A DNA stretch of 64,000 nucleotides from Nesterenkonia sp. LB17. Lineage in GTDB: Bacteria; Actinomycetota; Actinomycetes; Actinomycetales; Micrococcaceae. Positions within the stretch are counted from its first letter, which is position 1, and the number at the start of each line of letters is the position of its first letter. Below, one piece after another: positions 7,402-11,783 of the stretch. The notes beneath the pieces were generated by a model. That model had not been told where the DNA came from. It saw only the letters and a program-made list of their open reading frames with translations, and made no database searches. The stretch lies in the NCBI RefSeq assembly GCF_022565915.1, contig NZ_JAJOYX010000002.1:186001-250000 (forward strand). Direction: 5' to 3'. The translations under genes and the position numbers were made by a program.

Positions 7402-8167
7402 TCAATCGGGGGCGTACCGCGGCACTTGCATGAACTGGTAGACGTAGGCCGGGCGTTCCATCGTCGGGCTGCTGACATCCTGGCCTACTTCGAGAGGCCG
7501 GGGACTTCCAACCGGCCCACAGTCATCAACGGCAGGCTCGAGTACCTGCGGGCACGGGCTCTGCGGATCCGGAATCTCGCCCGACGCATCACCAGATCGC
7601 TGCTGGATACTGAACGATTCAGGCCGTTGCTACACCCTGACCTGAGCTGGGATCGGCCGTCCTGCTGCACGGAGGGTTCTGGAAGGCACATGTAGACCGT
7701 CAGCACGCCAGTCACATGGCACACGCTCTGGCCGCCGACGGCTGGAAGGTGATCTCAGCGGAGGACCCGCGCGTACCGGGGCAGCCAGATCAGACGCATG
7801 ACGCAGTAGAGCATGCACTGAGTGAGCTGATGAACCTCCACATCGCGGATGCCCCCAGGTGGCACTGGCTCCGATAACGTCACTTCGTCGAGCCGAAGAA
7901 CTCCGTCTGGGCGAAGGAGCCGTCCAGAGTTTCTTGGGCGGCCCAGCGTGGTTGAGGCCCGATTTGGACCAGAGCACCCACTGGCCAGTGGTCCAGGACG
8001 TGATTCGGCGGGCCGGAACTCCCGATATGAGGATCCTCGACACCGTGACGTGACCTGACAAGCCTTCGACGCAATACCCAACCTGCCACAGATAGTGCTC
8101 GGAAGGCGTCTTGTGCACCGGTAGCCAGCTAAGGTACACCGGTGATTCCAACGTTTTAGGAGAGCAG
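7402..8167. other. gap without an intact gene
   Basis: About 770 bp. Several short frames look coding-like but none has a credible start, length and domain. The minus strand around 7755-7910 encodes a piece (LLRPDGVLRLDEVTLSE) reminiscent of the C-terminal part of SAM-dependent methyltransferases, but I cannot follow it upstream. The stretch is probably decayed sequence; its last ~50 bp hold the promoter and leader of the next operon, ending in TTTTAGGAGAGCAG before the start codon. Confidence 0.4.
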
Positions 8168-9808
8168 ATGATGACCGTCGCAGAACAGGTCGGCGCCTAC
8201 CTGGCGCGCCTCGGTGTCGGCCACGCCTTCGGTGTAGTTGGCAGTGGCAATTTCGTCGTCACCAACGCTTTGCGTGACGCGGGGGTTCCGTTCACCGCTT
8301 CCAGGCATGAGGGCGGTGCAGCGACGATGGCGGATGCTTATTCGCGAATGAGCGGACAGGTCAGCGTCTTGAGCCTCCATCAGGGGTGCGGCCTGACCAA
8401 TGCCGGCACCGGAATCAGTGAGGCCGCCAAGTCACGCACTCCCATGATCGTGCTGGCAGCTGAGACCGCCGCTGCCCAGGTCCATTCCAATTTCGCAATG
8501 GACCAGCGGGACTTCGCTCGCGCTCTGCTCGCAGAACCCGACCGGGTCCATTCAGCAGAATCTGCTCTCACCGACACCCTGCGGGCCTATCGGACAGCCG
8601 TGAGGGACCGTCGCACGGTGGTCTTGAACCTGCCCCTGGATGTCCAGGCATCCGAGGCGATCGGAGAGATTCCCCACCTCACCGTTGAGCCACGACCCGA
8701 GACCGCGCCTTCCGAGGGGGACCTCGAGAAACTCATCGAGGCGATATCTCACAGCGAGCGGCCGGTATTCGTGGCAGGGCGCGGCGGACGCGGCGCGAAG
8801 AGGGACATCGCAGCGCTGGCCCAGGCGACTGGAGCCCTGCTGGCCACCAGTGCCGTGGCGAAAGGGCTGTTCCATGGGGACGACTTCGACCTCGGCATCT
8901 CTGGCGGCTTCTCCTCGCCCTTGACCGCAGAGTTGATCAGTGATGCCGACCTGATAGTAGCGTTCGGCTGCGCGCTCAACATGTGGACGATGCGCCATGG
9001 GAAGCTCATCGGTCGTGACACCGTGGTTGCTCAGATTGACGTGGAAGACTCCGCACTCGGTGCACAGCGTCCTGTCGACATACCGGTCCTTGGGAGTGCT
9101 GCCGGCGTCGCCCAGGCACTGTTGGGAACGTTCGATGGTCGGGAGAGGACCCGCTACCGCACCACTGAAGTGCGACAACGCATTGCGACTCTCTCGCGTT
9201 GGGATCAGACGCCGACCGAGGTCTTGGGCACTCCAGGACAGAGTGTCGATCCGCGCGAGCTCTCCAAGGAGATCAATCGGATTCTTCCTGCTGAGCGCAT
9301 CGTCAGCATCGACTCCGGCAACTTCATGGGTTACCCAAGCCAATATTTCGACGTCCCCGACGAGTTCGGTTTCTGCTTCACGCAGGCTTTCCAATCGATC
9401 GGGCTGGGCTTATACACCGCTATTGGTTCAGCACTGGCGCAACCTCACCGGATGCCAGTTCTGGGAACAGGTGACGGTGGGTTCCTTATGGCCGTCCAGG
9501 AATTGGAAACTGCCGTGCGCCTGCAACTGCCACTGGTGGTGGTGGTCTACAACGATGCTGCCTACTCAGCTGAGGTACACCACTTCGGAGAAGACCAGGA
9601 CCTGACAACGGTGACTTTTCCAGACACAGACATTGCTGCCATTGCGCGAGGATTCGGCGCCACAGGTATCACCGTACGCTCCACAGAAGACCTCGAACCC
9701 CTGCGTGAATGGGTTTCGTCTGACCCCAATTGTCCGGTGGTAATCGACGCGAAAATCGCAGACGATGGAGGTTCCTGGTGGCTGGCAGAAGCTTTCAAGG
9801 GGCACTGA
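8168..9808 (+). CDS. thiamine diphosphate-dependent enzyme, acetolactate synthase-like
   Basis: A 546-residue enzyme of the acetolactate synthase/benzoylformate decarboxylase superfamily. The N-terminal pyrimidine-binding domain has the catalytic Glu in SRHEGGAA (about residue 48). A central domain follows. The C-terminal diphosphate-binding domain has GDGGFLM followed ~27 residues later by VYNDAAY, the Mg/ThDP-binding pair. ATG 8168 is chosen because AGGAG sits 6-10 nt upstream; an in-frame TTG at 8111 is possible but poorly placed. The cyclase-family gene follows after 51 nt on the same strand, so the two probably act on one pathway, for example cleavage or decarboxylation of a 2-oxo acid coupled to a cyclase/amidohydrolase step. 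There is no regulatory subunit gene, which argues against branched-chain amino acid synthesis. The substrate is unknown. Confidence 0.87.
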   Translation: MMTVAEQVGAYLARLGVGHAFGVVGSGNFVVTNALRDAGVPFTASRHEGGAATMADAYSRMSGQVSVLSLHQGCGLTNAGTGISEAAKSRTPMIVLAAETAAAQVHSNFAMDQRDFARALLAEPDRVHSAESALTDTLRAYRTAVRDRRTVVLNLPLDVQASEAIGEIPHLTVEPRPETAPSEGDLEKLIEAISHSERPVFVAGRGGRGAKRDIAALAQATGALLATSAVAKGLFHGDDFDLGISGGFSSPLTAELISDADLIVAFGCALNMWTMRHGKLIGRDTVVAQIDVEDSALGAQRPVDIPVLGSAAGVAQALLGTFDGRERTRYRTTEVRQRIATLSRWDQTPTEVLGTPGQSVDPRELSKEINRILPAERIVSIDSGNFMGYPSQYFDVPDEFGFCFTQAFQSIGLGLYTAIGSALAQPHRMPVLGTGDGGFLMAVQELETAVRLQLPLVVVVYNDAAYSAEVHHFGEDQDLTTVTFPDTDIAAIARGFGATGITVRSTEDLEPLREWVSSDPNCPVVIDAKIADDGGSWWLAEAFKGH

Positions 9809-9859
9809 AGCTCCGATACACTCACCGCAGATCAACTCTCGAGAATAAGGTATAGCCAA

Positions 9860-10627
9860 GTGACTGCAGTCAATGCTCTGATCGCCGGTTTGTTCGACAA
9901 ATCCGTCAGCATCGTCGATCTCACAAATCCGCTGTCCGCCTCAACTCCTACCTTGAAGCTGCCTGAACCCTTCGTCAACCTGATCGACTTCAGCTTGGAC
10001 AAGGTCGCTGAGTACGACGCACAGGGGCCGTTCTGGAAACACCACAACATTCACACTGGTGAACACGTCGGCACCCATATCGATGCCCCGGTTCACTGGG
10101 TGTCAGGACGAGGAGGTCACGATGTATCCTCTATCCCGCCTGAACGGTTGATCGGCCCTGCCGCGGTGCTGGACGTCAGGGCGCAGGTCGAAGATGACCC
10201 GGACTTCCTGCTCCAGATCAATGATATTCGTGTCTGGGAGACAGAGAATGGGCCGTTGCCACATAACGGTTGGCTGCTCCTGCGCACCGGGTGGGACCGA
10301 TTCTCTCAAGATCAGGAGTCGTTCCTCAACGCCGACGACACCGGCTCACACACTCCTGGGATCTCGGCAGAGGCGGCCCTTTGGATCGCAGAGGAGACTT
10401 CGCTCTCCGGCATCGGAGTAGAAACGGTCGGAATCGATGCCGGTCGCGGTGCGGAACTGGACCCGCCATTTCCTGTCCACTATCACTTGCTGGGCAATGA
10501 CAAGTATGGAATCACCTCGCTGCAGAACTTGGACAAACTTCCAACCGTAGGAGCGATGCTGGTGGTAGCTCCTTTGCCCATCGTGGACGGGACAGCGAGC
10601 CCGTCACGGGTCTACGCGCTCATCTGA
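9860..10627 (+). CDS. cyclase family protein (kynurenine formamidase-like metal hydrolase)
   Basis: Protein of 255 residues with the metal-binding signature HxGTHxDxPxH at residues 69-79 (H69, H73, D75, H79). This signature defines the family that includes bacterial kynurenine formamidase, isatin hydrolase and polyketide cyclase-like enzymes. The C-terminal region GIDAGRGAELDPPFPVHYHLLG (around 193-215) supplies the second conserved block with a conserved His near the end. The start is GTG 9860, 51 nt after the ThDP enzyme. Family members open or close rings by hydrolysis at an amide or keto group. Genomic pairing with a ThDP enzyme suggests hydrolysis producing, or acting on, a 2-oxo acid; this is inference. 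No tryptophan-degradation genes are nearby, so kynurenine formamidase is not favoured. Confidence 0.85.
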   Translation: MTAVNALIAGLFDKSVSIVDLTNPLSASTPTLKLPEPFVNLIDFSLDKVAEYDAQGPFWKHHNIHTGEHVGTHIDAPVHWVSGRGGHDVSSIPPERLIGPAAVLDVRAQVEDDPDFLLQINDIRVWETENGPLPHNGWLLLRTGWDRFSQDQESFLNADDTGSHTPGISAEAALWIAEETSLSGIGVETVGIDAGRGAELDPPFPVHYHLLGNDKYGITSLQNLDKLPTVGAMLVVAPLPIVDGTASPSRVYALI

Positions 10628-10936
10628 TCACCGTCTAGTGGTTCAAGGTCGGCGCGACTAGCCGAATGCGCAGGTGTGGCCAGACGACGTCTACAAAGGA
10701 CCGTCCAGGCGATGATCTCGCCGCGCCACCGACAGTGCTCCCGAAGTCAATGAGGCTCACTTCAAGGGCAATAGGTACGCCCCGTTCGACGAGGCAGACC
10801 GGACTTGGTGCACCGAGCTGGTATCAAGCATTCCGCGCAAGTCGGACGGTTCCTACTGCACGCGCCAGGCTGCCGCCGTCCACCCGTCCTTCCCCATGGT
10901 GGCAGTCCCAAGATTCTGAATTCTGAGGTTCAGGAG

Positions 10937-11074
10937 AACACCTATGGGCATCCCGCTGCGGAGATCATCCGCACGTTGGAGGGCCTCGGTGCCGCGGTCT
11001 ACCGCACTGATCTCCACGGCACAGTGGTCTTCACCTTGGATGCAGACGGCTTGGAGGCGACCGCTGTTCCTTGA
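10937..11074 (+). pseudogene. C-terminal fragment of ComEC/metallo-beta-lactamase-type protein
   Basis: A 45-codon stretch reads NTYGHPAAEIIRTLEGLGAA followed by VYRTDLHGTVVFTLD. That is the usual end of ComEC/Rec2-like and related metallo-beta-lactamase hydrolases (YGHP-x-LxxLxxxGxxVYRTDxxGTV). The frame upstream (from about 10805) does not continue into any recognisable metallo-beta-lactamase core, so only the tail survives. The rest of the 10628-11135 gap shows a short coding-like piece in another frame (EAHFKGNRYAPFDEADRTW, about 10750-10805) that I cannot assign. Confidence 0.55.
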
Positions 11075-11135
11075 TTCGAGCGACATCGGATGGGCTTGGG
11101 AAGCATTCGGATCTGCGGCGGGAACCTTCGCGGCG

Positions 11136-11783
11136 TCAGATTCGGCCGGTCTCGTGGGCCCACATGGCGACCTCGACGCGGTTTCGGGCGCCGATTTTTC
11201 GCATGAGGCTGGCGAGGTGGGCTTTGACGGTGCTTGGGGTGATGTAAAGCTCGCTGGCGATCTCGTTGTTGGTGTGACCTTGGGCTACAGGCACGAGGAC
11301 CTCCTCCTCGCGGGCGGTGAGCGGTTCTATCGGCTGCCTCGGTGGTGAGGTCTGTGCGTGCGCGAATGCTGCGAGCAGTCGGACGGTCACGCTGGGAGCG
11401 ATCAGTGCGTCTCCGTCGGCGGCGGCGTGGATGGCCTGGGTCAGCAGGGCGGGTCCGGCGTCCTTGAGCAGGAACCCGCGGGCGCCGGCTTTGAGCGCCC
11501 CGTGGACATACTCGTCGAGGTCGAAGGTGGTGATGACCACGATCGGCAGGGGGTCGGTGACGTCGGGGCCGGCGAGGCGTCGAGTGGCTTCGATGCCGTC
11601 CATCAGCGGCATGCGGATGTCGAACAGGCCGACGTCGGGGCGCAGCTGGAGGGCCAGGCGGACTGCCTCGCGCCCGTCGGCGGCCGCGCCGACCACTTCG
11701 ATGTCGGGTTGGGCGTCGAGCAGCATCGTCAGCCCGGTGCGCACGATCGGCTGGTCGTCGGCGATGAGGACCCTGATGCTCAT
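11136..11783 (-). CDS. LuxR/NarL-family response regulator
   Basis: A 215-residue two-component regulator. Its receiver domain has acidic residues D9/D10 (IADDQ), phospho-acceptor Asp55 (LFDIRMP), Thr/Ser near 85 and Lys107 (FLLKDAG). A LuxR-type helix-turn-helix follows (LTAREEEVLVPVAQG, NNEIASELYITPSTVKAHL; about 150-200). It overlaps the upstream histidine kinase gene by 4 nt, so both are translated from one mRNA and form a cognate pair. Targets are unknown; the divergently oriented DUF6326 gene on the far side of the kinase is a candidate by position. Confidence 0.93.
   Translation of the reverse strand: MSIRVLIADDQPIVRTGLTMLLDAQPDIEVVGAAADGREAVRLALQLRPDVGLFDIRMPLMDGIEATRRLAGPDVTDPLPIVVITTFDLDEYVHGALKAGARGFLLKDAGPALLTQAIHAAADGDALIAPSVTVRLLAAFAHAQTSPPRQPIEPLTAREEEVLVPVAQGHTNNEIASELYITPSTVKAHLASLMRKIGARNRVEVAMWAHETGRI

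Follow-up and report, generated by a model that had tools for sequence, protein, structure and literature searches.

What do two adjacent genes of unrelated families do together when neither family alone fixes a pathway? The question is raised by a short presumed operon in Nesterenkonia sp. LB17, in which the gene for a thiamine diphosphate (ThDP)-dependent enzyme is followed by that for a metal-dependent hydrolase of Pfam family PF04199. The pair lies in the window analyzed here, a stretch of 64,000 nucleotides covering positions 186,001–250,000 of contig NZ_JAJOYX010000002.1 (assembly GCF_022565915.1) of a 2.8 Mb genome. A preliminary description of this DNA had proposed that the pair could hydrolyze a cyclic or amide compound, with isatin-like compounds as candidate substrates, and go on to use the 2-oxo acid so formed, and it could not match the pair to a described route. 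Family membership, co-occurrence and gene context support this proposal, whose reactions are so far predicted ones, and the pair can be placed on a route that leads from indole or auxin through isatin and isatinate to anthranilate. Judging from sequence comparisons, the two enzymes probably act one after the other in the isatin branch of indole and auxin catabolism, the first step being the opening of isatin to isatinate and the next the decarboxylation of isatinate. The features concerned, in window coordinates, are as follows.

8168–9808, forward strand: ThDP-dependent enzyme of 546 amino acids, proposed isatinate (2-aminophenylglyoxylate) decarboxylase (open reading frame, Pfam, alignments, model).
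9860–10627, forward strand: PF04199 metal-dependent hydrolase of 255 amino acids, isatin-hydrolase-like, proposed to convert isatin to isatinate (open reading frame, Pfam, motifs).
8158–8162, forward strand: AGGAG, likely ribosome-binding site of the ThDP-enzyme gene (sequence).
9809–9859, forward strand: intergenic gap of 51 nt in the presumed two-gene operon (sequence, promoter and terminator scan).

Both genes are intact open reading frames on the same strand, separated by the 51 nt that the preliminary description had given. The first starts at an ATG at 8168 or 8171 and stops at 9806–9808, and the second starts at a GTG at 9860 and stops at 10625–10627. Pfam assigns the first to TPP_enzyme_N, TPP_enzyme_M and TPP_enzyme_C (E-values 7e-29, 5e-21 and 8e-25) and the second to Cyclase (E 1e-38). 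A scan of 7900–10900 found no promoter-like or terminator-like site in the gap; it gave zero promoter-like sites and a single terminator-like site, upstream at 7906–7928, below the shuffle average. The nearest named relatives of the pair belong to Nesterenkonia. Of six relatives compared, two are more distant, with synonymous divergence (dS) near 2; against the four closest, the ratio of nonsynonymous to synonymous substitution rates (dN/dS) is about 0.08–0.09 for the ThDP enzyme and 0.04–0.06 for the hydrolase. The pair is thus under purifying selection, and both genes are maintained rather than decaying.

The hydrolase gives an indication of the substrate. Its four best sequence matches in the PDB are isatin hydrolases (5nnb, 5nmp, 5nna and 4j0n), all at full length and with E-values of 1e-60 to 1e-67, and the fifth match is far weaker (E 2e-30). 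The motif HxGTHxDxPxH named in the preliminary description is present as H69-V-G-T-H-I-D-A-P-V-H79, so that H69, H73, D75 and H79 are retained with the same residue numbers as in the Labrenzia aggregata enzyme LaIHA, and the metal motif, written more generally as HxG[T/A]HxDxPxH, is shared by 77 of 77 paired relatives. The catalytic Asp and His (D193 and H207 in LaIHA) are present in the window enzyme and in 76 of these relatives, one position being unaligned in the remaining one. The window enzyme thus shares with isatin hydrolases A and B (LaIHA and LaIHB, and RsIHA of Ralstonia solanacearum; 5nna, 5nnb, 5nmp, 4j0n, 4m8d) full-length homology, the metal motif, the catalytic pair, W59 and the L32/L34-type residues; it differs from them in its WKH pocket, its GITS motif and the pairing of its gene with that of a ThDP enzyme. 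Two other identities were rejected: kynurenine formamidase KynB, whose model TIGR03035 scores 33.9 bits with a cut-off of 223, and the IifA-type oxygenase, since IifA is a dienelactone-hydrolase-family protein. A divergent isatin-hydrolase-like subgroup (loci L147, L152 and L156) has neither a ThDP enzyme nor an oxidoreductase nearby.

The association of the two genes is not peculiar to this strain. The preliminary description had named a lack of co-occurrence in other genomes as one ground for refuting its proposal, and co-occurrence is clear. In a set of 58 genomes that includes the strain's own (E<1e-80 for the hydrolase, E<1e-120 for the ThDP enzyme), a close hydrolase is present in 13, each of which has the ThDP enzyme no more than 1.5 kb away on the same strand; genomes G005 and G025 possess the ThDP enzyme but no close hydrolase, and the hydrolase of G030 has one internal stop. 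Across 394 genomes of the class, again including its own (E<=1e-50 and E<=1e-120, respectively), the hydrolase occurs in 58 and the ThDP enzyme in 44, and 41 genomes spanning 13 families have both (Fisher 2.5e-38, not corrected for phylogeny), so that 41 of the 44 ThDP-enzyme genomes also have the hydrolase. The ThDP gene lies on the same strand within 3 kb at 40 of the 59 hydrolase places, with the hydrolase first at 36 and the ThDP enzyme first at 4, and the aligned ends of adjoining genes are 5–739 nt apart. Among the 19 places without a strong ThDP match, six have an adjoining ThDP enzyme of 50–53% identity that is too weak a match for the E-value cut, seven stand beside both the alpha and the beta subunit genes of indolepyruvate:ferredoxin oxidoreductase (IorAB), and one pair, in G251, is possibly split by contig ends.

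The same picture emerges from the ThDP enzyme. When the best 80 of at least 583 loci with its relatives in named genomes were examined for neighbors, the hydrolase lay within 400 nt in 74, on the same strand in 68 (hydrolase first in 63, ThDP enzyme first in 5) and on the opposite strand in 6. Three of the six loci lacking an adjoining hydrolase are in genomes with a close hydrolase elsewhere, and the other three are in genomes with none at E<=1e-20. Plasmid records place the pair side by side on two Deinococcus plasmids and one Rhodococcus plasmid, and its coding regions overlap on three plasmids; a Tsukamurella plasmid carries the hydrolase without a window-type ThDP enzyme, and Agrobacterium pusense has a 50% identical ThDP enzyme and a 39% identical hydrolase about 4 kb apart on opposite strands. 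Two further arrangements were observed. Nonomuraea gerenzanensis carries two complete hydrolase–ThDP pairs at separate places of one record (L059 and L060), and at L131, L136 and L140 ThDP-enzyme relatives of 63–65% identity adjoin an anthranilate-CoA module and a major facilitator superfamily transporter in genomes without the hydrolase.

The surroundings of the pair point to indole and anthranilate. In Nesterenkonia natronophila (L064), a complete set of indole and anthranilate genes surrounds it. In these best 80 loci with ThDP-enzyme relatives, a styrene/indole-monooxygenase-type gene occurs in 14, 13 of which also have a short-chain dehydrogenase/reductase (SDR) gene, a flavin adenine dinucleotide (FAD) oxidoreductase in 15, a 2-aminobenzoyl-coenzyme A (CoA) monooxygenase/reductase-type gene in 17, and a CoA ligase, a thioesterase, a cupin and a RidA gene in 18 each; FAA hydrolase genes and PaaX-type regulators are carried as well. 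The best PDB match of the CoA ligase is an anthranilate-CoA ligase (E 6e-73) and its second a benzoate-CoA ligase (E 1e-67); the anthranilate module's cupin matches nothing in the PDB at E<=0.001. Expression has confirmed two anthranilate-CoA ligases in Arthrobacter Rue61a, where anthranilate is described as being degraded only via CoA thioesters, as stated in excerpts of that report (PMC3534580). The gene set of the complete clusters fits a route from indole through oxidized indole, isatin, isatinate and anthranilate to anthraniloyl-CoA.

Other genes of these clusters deserve mention in their own right. The genes at L054:1854-4250, L058:12247-14604 and L040:6416-8827 are annotated or scored as salicylyl-CoA 5-hydroxylase/oxidoreductase; their context suggests a 2-aminobenzoyl-CoA monooxygenase/reductase, and the salicylyl-CoA name may be wrong there. 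A fusion of Smoa_sbd and Flavin_Reduct domains follows directly after a separate styrene/indole-monooxygenase-type gene at L077:4698-6431 and L129:4730-6595. The FAD oxidoreductase of indole clusters (L077:6465-8075, L064:12481-14112) resembles CrtO and amine oxidases, the L077 copy having weak PDB matches only, and is a candidate for the dioxindole-to-isatin step.

The ThDP enzyme is less easily assigned. It scores under all curated NCBIfam cut-offs among the 25 listed of 52 families, and acetolactate synthase (ilvB/alsS) was rejected, with 191 bits vs 538 for TIGR00118 and 202 vs 509 for PRK08322. The benzoylformate decarboxylase model PRK07092 scores 139 bits, below its cut-off of 493. Benzoylformate decarboxylase of Pseudomonas putida (1bfd), whose substrate is the des-amino analogue of isatinate, nevertheless shares the ThDP fold, and its Ser26, Glu47 and His70 align with S26, E48 and H71 of the window enzyme, which are invariant in 31 of 31 relatives. 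By this alignment E48 corresponds to the cofactor-activating Glu; Ser26, His70 and His281 of benzoylformate decarboxylase are catalytic residues. The Ser/His pair is suited to an aryl-2-oxo acid as substrate, and the exchange of Leu461 and Phe464 for the invariant E469 and H472 could create a polar pocket suited to an ortho-amino group. The predicted model (mean pLDDT 89) matches pyruvate oxidase, acetohydroxyacid synthase (AHAS), HKA synthase, 2-hydroxyacyl-CoA lyase, benzaldehyde lyase, glyoxylate carboligase, cyclohexane-1,2-dione hydrolase and others among the 50 structural matches listed, at Z-scores of 35.1–38.2, so that the fold search gave no separation between decarboxylase, oxidase, synthase and lyase.

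A further indication comes from loci in which the ThDP enzyme has been replaced. IorAB, a ThDP-type enzyme that consumes 2-oxo acids, adjoins the hydrolase in place of the ThDP enzyme at seven actinobacterial loci and on the Tsukamurella plasmid, whose locus is nearly identical to L161, one of the seven. IorA of at least 35% identity is found in 0 of the best 80 ThDP loci and the window-type ThDP enzyme in 0 of the seven IorAB loci. That an enzyme which consumes 2-oxo acids occupies the same slot points to a 2-oxo acid as the product of the hydrolase. The monooxygenase/reductase is present in 25 of 103 loci, comprising 18 of the ThDP type, 6 of the IorAB type and 1 without ThDP enzyme, IorAB or ligase. 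Among these, a CoA ligase accompanies it in 17 of the 18 ThDP-type vs 2 of the 6 IorAB-type loci (Fisher p 0.0065, uncorrected for relatedness, in a count that would miss ligases beyond about 8 kb), and the two IorAB-type loci with a ligase are near-identical Tsukamurella-type loci. Such rarity of the ligase would be predicted if anthraniloyl-CoA were the immediate product of the oxidoreductase. IorAB thus resembles the window enzyme as a ThDP-type 2-oxo-acid enzyme beside the hydrolase; it is a different gene pair, and the CoA ester would be its direct product only by inference. Eight loci in all (L153, L154, L155, L158, L160, L161, L163 and L145) hold an isatin-hydrolase-like gene with IorAB, 6 of 8 with the monooxygenase/reductase and 2 of 8 with a CoA ligase, and may represent an alternative route to anthraniloyl-CoA.

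In the proposed route, the PF04199 enzyme, which probably requires Mn2+ as do the isatin hydrolases of known structure, would use a Mn2+-activated water to attack its substrate and would open the 2-oxo-lactam ring of isatin, or of a closely related compound, yielding isatinate, a 2-oxo acid. Attack by the ThDP enzyme on the keto carbon of isatinate would then release CO2, and the product would be 2-aminobenzaldehyde, or anthranilate directly if the enzyme is oxidative like pyruvate oxidase. In the complete clusters, anthranilate would be converted to anthraniloyl-CoA, the presumed substrate of the monooxygenase/reductase. We lean toward the view that the ThDP enzyme is the missing isatinate decarboxylase in the bacterial breakdown of indole and auxin and may act oxidatively, and that Actinobacteria have two interchangeable ThDP solutions for this step, a decarboxylase followed by a CoA ligase, or IorAB, which would make anthraniloyl-CoA directly and allow the ligase to be lost.

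A number of observations weigh against this assignment, bearing in turn on the substrates, on the second enzyme and on the pairing. The published isatin-hydrolase signature consists of a WxW/FxW pocket and a GLQC/GLAS motif, as given in an excerpt of its report (PMC6117287). The window enzyme has W59-K-H61, with His61 in place of Trp61, and GITS at residues 217–220, with Thr219 and Ser220; the pocket of the 77 paired relatives is WxH in 47, WxW in 29 and SYQ in 1, and GLQC or GLAS occurs in 0 of the 76 aligned there. Since the signature motifs are altered, the enzyme is termed isatin-hydrolase-like here and is not filed as a member of the isatin hydrolases. Most pair loci carry no anthranilate module within reach; among the 58 relatives, the monooxygenase/reductase occurs in 4 of 13 pair-bearing and 3 of 45 other genomes and an indole-monooxygenase-type gene in just 1, and in the strain's own genome no such gene was found (E<=1e-60). 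The monooxygenase/reductase scores 1206 bits with the NCBIfam model of salicylyl-CoA 5-hydroxylase/oxidoreductase, above its cut-off of 1078, and is named salicylyl-CoA hydroxylase by NCBI, so salicylate is an alternative downstream product. This score and the altered pocket would both suit a pair that acts as proposed on a different cyclic alpha-keto compound, either an isatin with substituents or an oxygen analogue such as benzofuran-2,3-dione, and feeds a salicylate branch in place of an anthranilate one. We regard this as unlikely, though it is the alternative that survives best. The WKH/GITS combination is also found in 3 of the 5 loci that hold both an indole-monooxygenase-type gene and the monooxygenase/reductase, and the altered pocket therefore occurs in an indole context; the ligase is nearer to anthranilate-CoA and benzoate-CoA ligases than to salicylate-AMP ligase (E 2e-43); and the RidA-family genes fit an amino compound.

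For the second enzyme, the difficulty lies in its distance from benzoylformate decarboxylase, with which it shares 119 identical of 510 aligned residues. His281 of that enzyme aligns with T274, a threonine in 31 of 31 relatives, and no benzoylformate decarboxylase chain is among the 50 structural matches listed. Nor was a conserved linked aldehyde dehydrogenase found, 3 of 102 loci matching a single probe at 25–35% identity with the probe's source locus excluded, so that an unlinked dehydrogenase and an oxidative ThDP enzyme giving anthranilate are both possible. HKA synthases (8x3x, 8x3z), benzaldehyde lyase and AHAS are among the nearest folds and sequences, which would suit a carboligase or lyase of the benzaldehyde-lyase or HKA-synthase type that forms C–C bonds with the hydrolase product or its aldehyde, in a biosynthetic pair. 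That is improbable in view of the degradation modules at these loci, with their CoA ligase, monooxygenase/reductase, FAA hydrolase and PaaX-type regulators, and of the oxidoreductase that occupies the ThDP-enzyme slot at others. More improbable still is an alicyclic ring-cleavage pair, in which a retro-Claisen C–C hydrolase like dihydrophloroglucinol cyclohydrolase would work with a ThDP enzyme like cyclohexane-1,2-dione hydrolase. The latter is among the structural matches listed (4d5e, 4d5g), and the former belongs to the superfamily of the window hydrolase; according to an excerpt of its description, however, the cyclohydrolase is 25% identical to isatin hydrolase and has Trp and Tyr in place of I32 and L34 (PMC10470551), whereas the window enzyme retains L32/L34, as LaIHB does in their alignment, and its matches to isatin hydrolases have E-values of 1e-60 or lower.

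On the pairing itself, no ThDP enzyme and no oxidoreductase lies within about 8 kb of 5 of the 59 hydrolase places, one of which is at the end of a contig, and three Arthrobacter-type genomes have the ThDP enzyme and an anthranilate module and no hydrolase at E<=1e-20. Chance adjacency of two unrelated enzymes might draw some support from the fact that neither family alone fixes a pathway and from the 6 of the best 80 ThDP loci without an adjoining hydrolase, but it is refuted by the neighborhood statistics: the two genes co-occur in 13 families of the class and also in Deinococcus, either gene may come first, and on three plasmids their coding regions overlap.

Bacterial indole and auxin degradation is reported, in the excerpts consulted, to have isatin, isatinic acid and anthranilate as intermediates, and a review, in the part available, holds that isatin's role in indole degradation has yet to be confirmed and cites the view that it is a dead end (PMC6221969). 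Two known systems are close to the isatin-to-anthranilate assignment. The iad auxin-degradation locus of Variovorax and Bradyrhizobium likewise includes a cyclase-type hydrolase in a route that passes isatin and isatinic acid on the way to anthranilate, according to excerpts of two reports (PMC9613470, PMC12633357); its IadI is annotated as kynurenine formamidase, and its membership of PF04199 would follow from the cyclase gene in iad-like plasmid loci. Unlike the window pair, the iad locus has Rieske oxygenase, ligase, thiolase and SDR genes, and neither of the two inspected iad-like plasmid loci has a ThDP enzyme. Overexpression in Variovorax of the entire iadC-K2 region, which differs from the window pair, leads to accumulation of C7H7NO, the formula of 2-aminobenzaldehyde, together with C8H7NO3, as an excerpt of that report states (PMC12633357). 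The iif indole-degradation operon of Acinetobacter and the Pseudomonas syringae group shares an SDR and a flavin indole monooxygenase with the clusters described here and ends in anthranilate, but its IifA is a 416-residue cofactor-free oxygenase and no PF04199–ThDP pair is involved. In the open-license literature searched in PMC, as far as its text was available and with subscription papers outside its scope, no gene was named for the conversion of isatinate to anthranilate and no report tied a ThDP enzyme to isatin or isatinate. Novelty is claimed within that limited literature, and what is offered is a candidate gene for the second step of a known route.

Why the pair stands alone in this strain is suggested by its flanks. 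The preliminary description had spoken of decayed DNA on both sides, and by open reading frames and codon composition both flanks do appear non-coding; the upstream one holds a recognizable relic.

7647–7969, forward strand: frameshifted alpha/beta-hydrolase relic, in blocks 7647–7856 and 7859–7969 (homology to L064:8225-8965).

Its two blocks are 62% and 73% identical to the alpha/beta-hydrolase gene that directly precedes the ThDP gene in N. natronophila. The flanks gave no nucleotide match at E<=1e-5 to the loci of the seven relatives tried, and the two flank peptides scanned, one of them from the apparently decayed stretch 10628–11135 downstream of the pair, had no Pfam match at E<=0.01; by impression alone, the downstream peptide might recall the end of a competence/metallo-hydrolase protein. 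As the preliminary description said, no ilvN or transporter adjoins the pair, and none of the flanking window genes scanned is ilvN-like; its absence of a regulator holds for the operon only, since the first intact gene downstream, 508 nt from the pair on the opposite strand, encodes a response regulator (11136–11783), with a histidine kinase. The monooxygenase/reductase was not found in the genome either (E<=1e-100). With a relic upstream and with this gene and the indole-monooxygenase-type gene gone, the pair therefore looks like what remains of a larger cluster and not like the compact stand-alone module that had been envisaged: most simply, it is the surviving part of an indole-to-anthranilate cluster that is intact in N. 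natronophila and degraded here. Its present role is plausibly, at a guess, the detoxification of isatin taken up from outside or the salvage of anthranilate.

The pair is present in sequenced Arthrobacter, Nocardia, Amycolatopsis, Gordonia and Deinococcus, and the isatinate step can be tested with two proteins. If the assignment is true, it would supply a ThDP enzyme for ortho-aminobenzoylformates and would give a specific name to genes now annotated as "thiamine pyrophosphate-binding protein" and "cyclase family protein".

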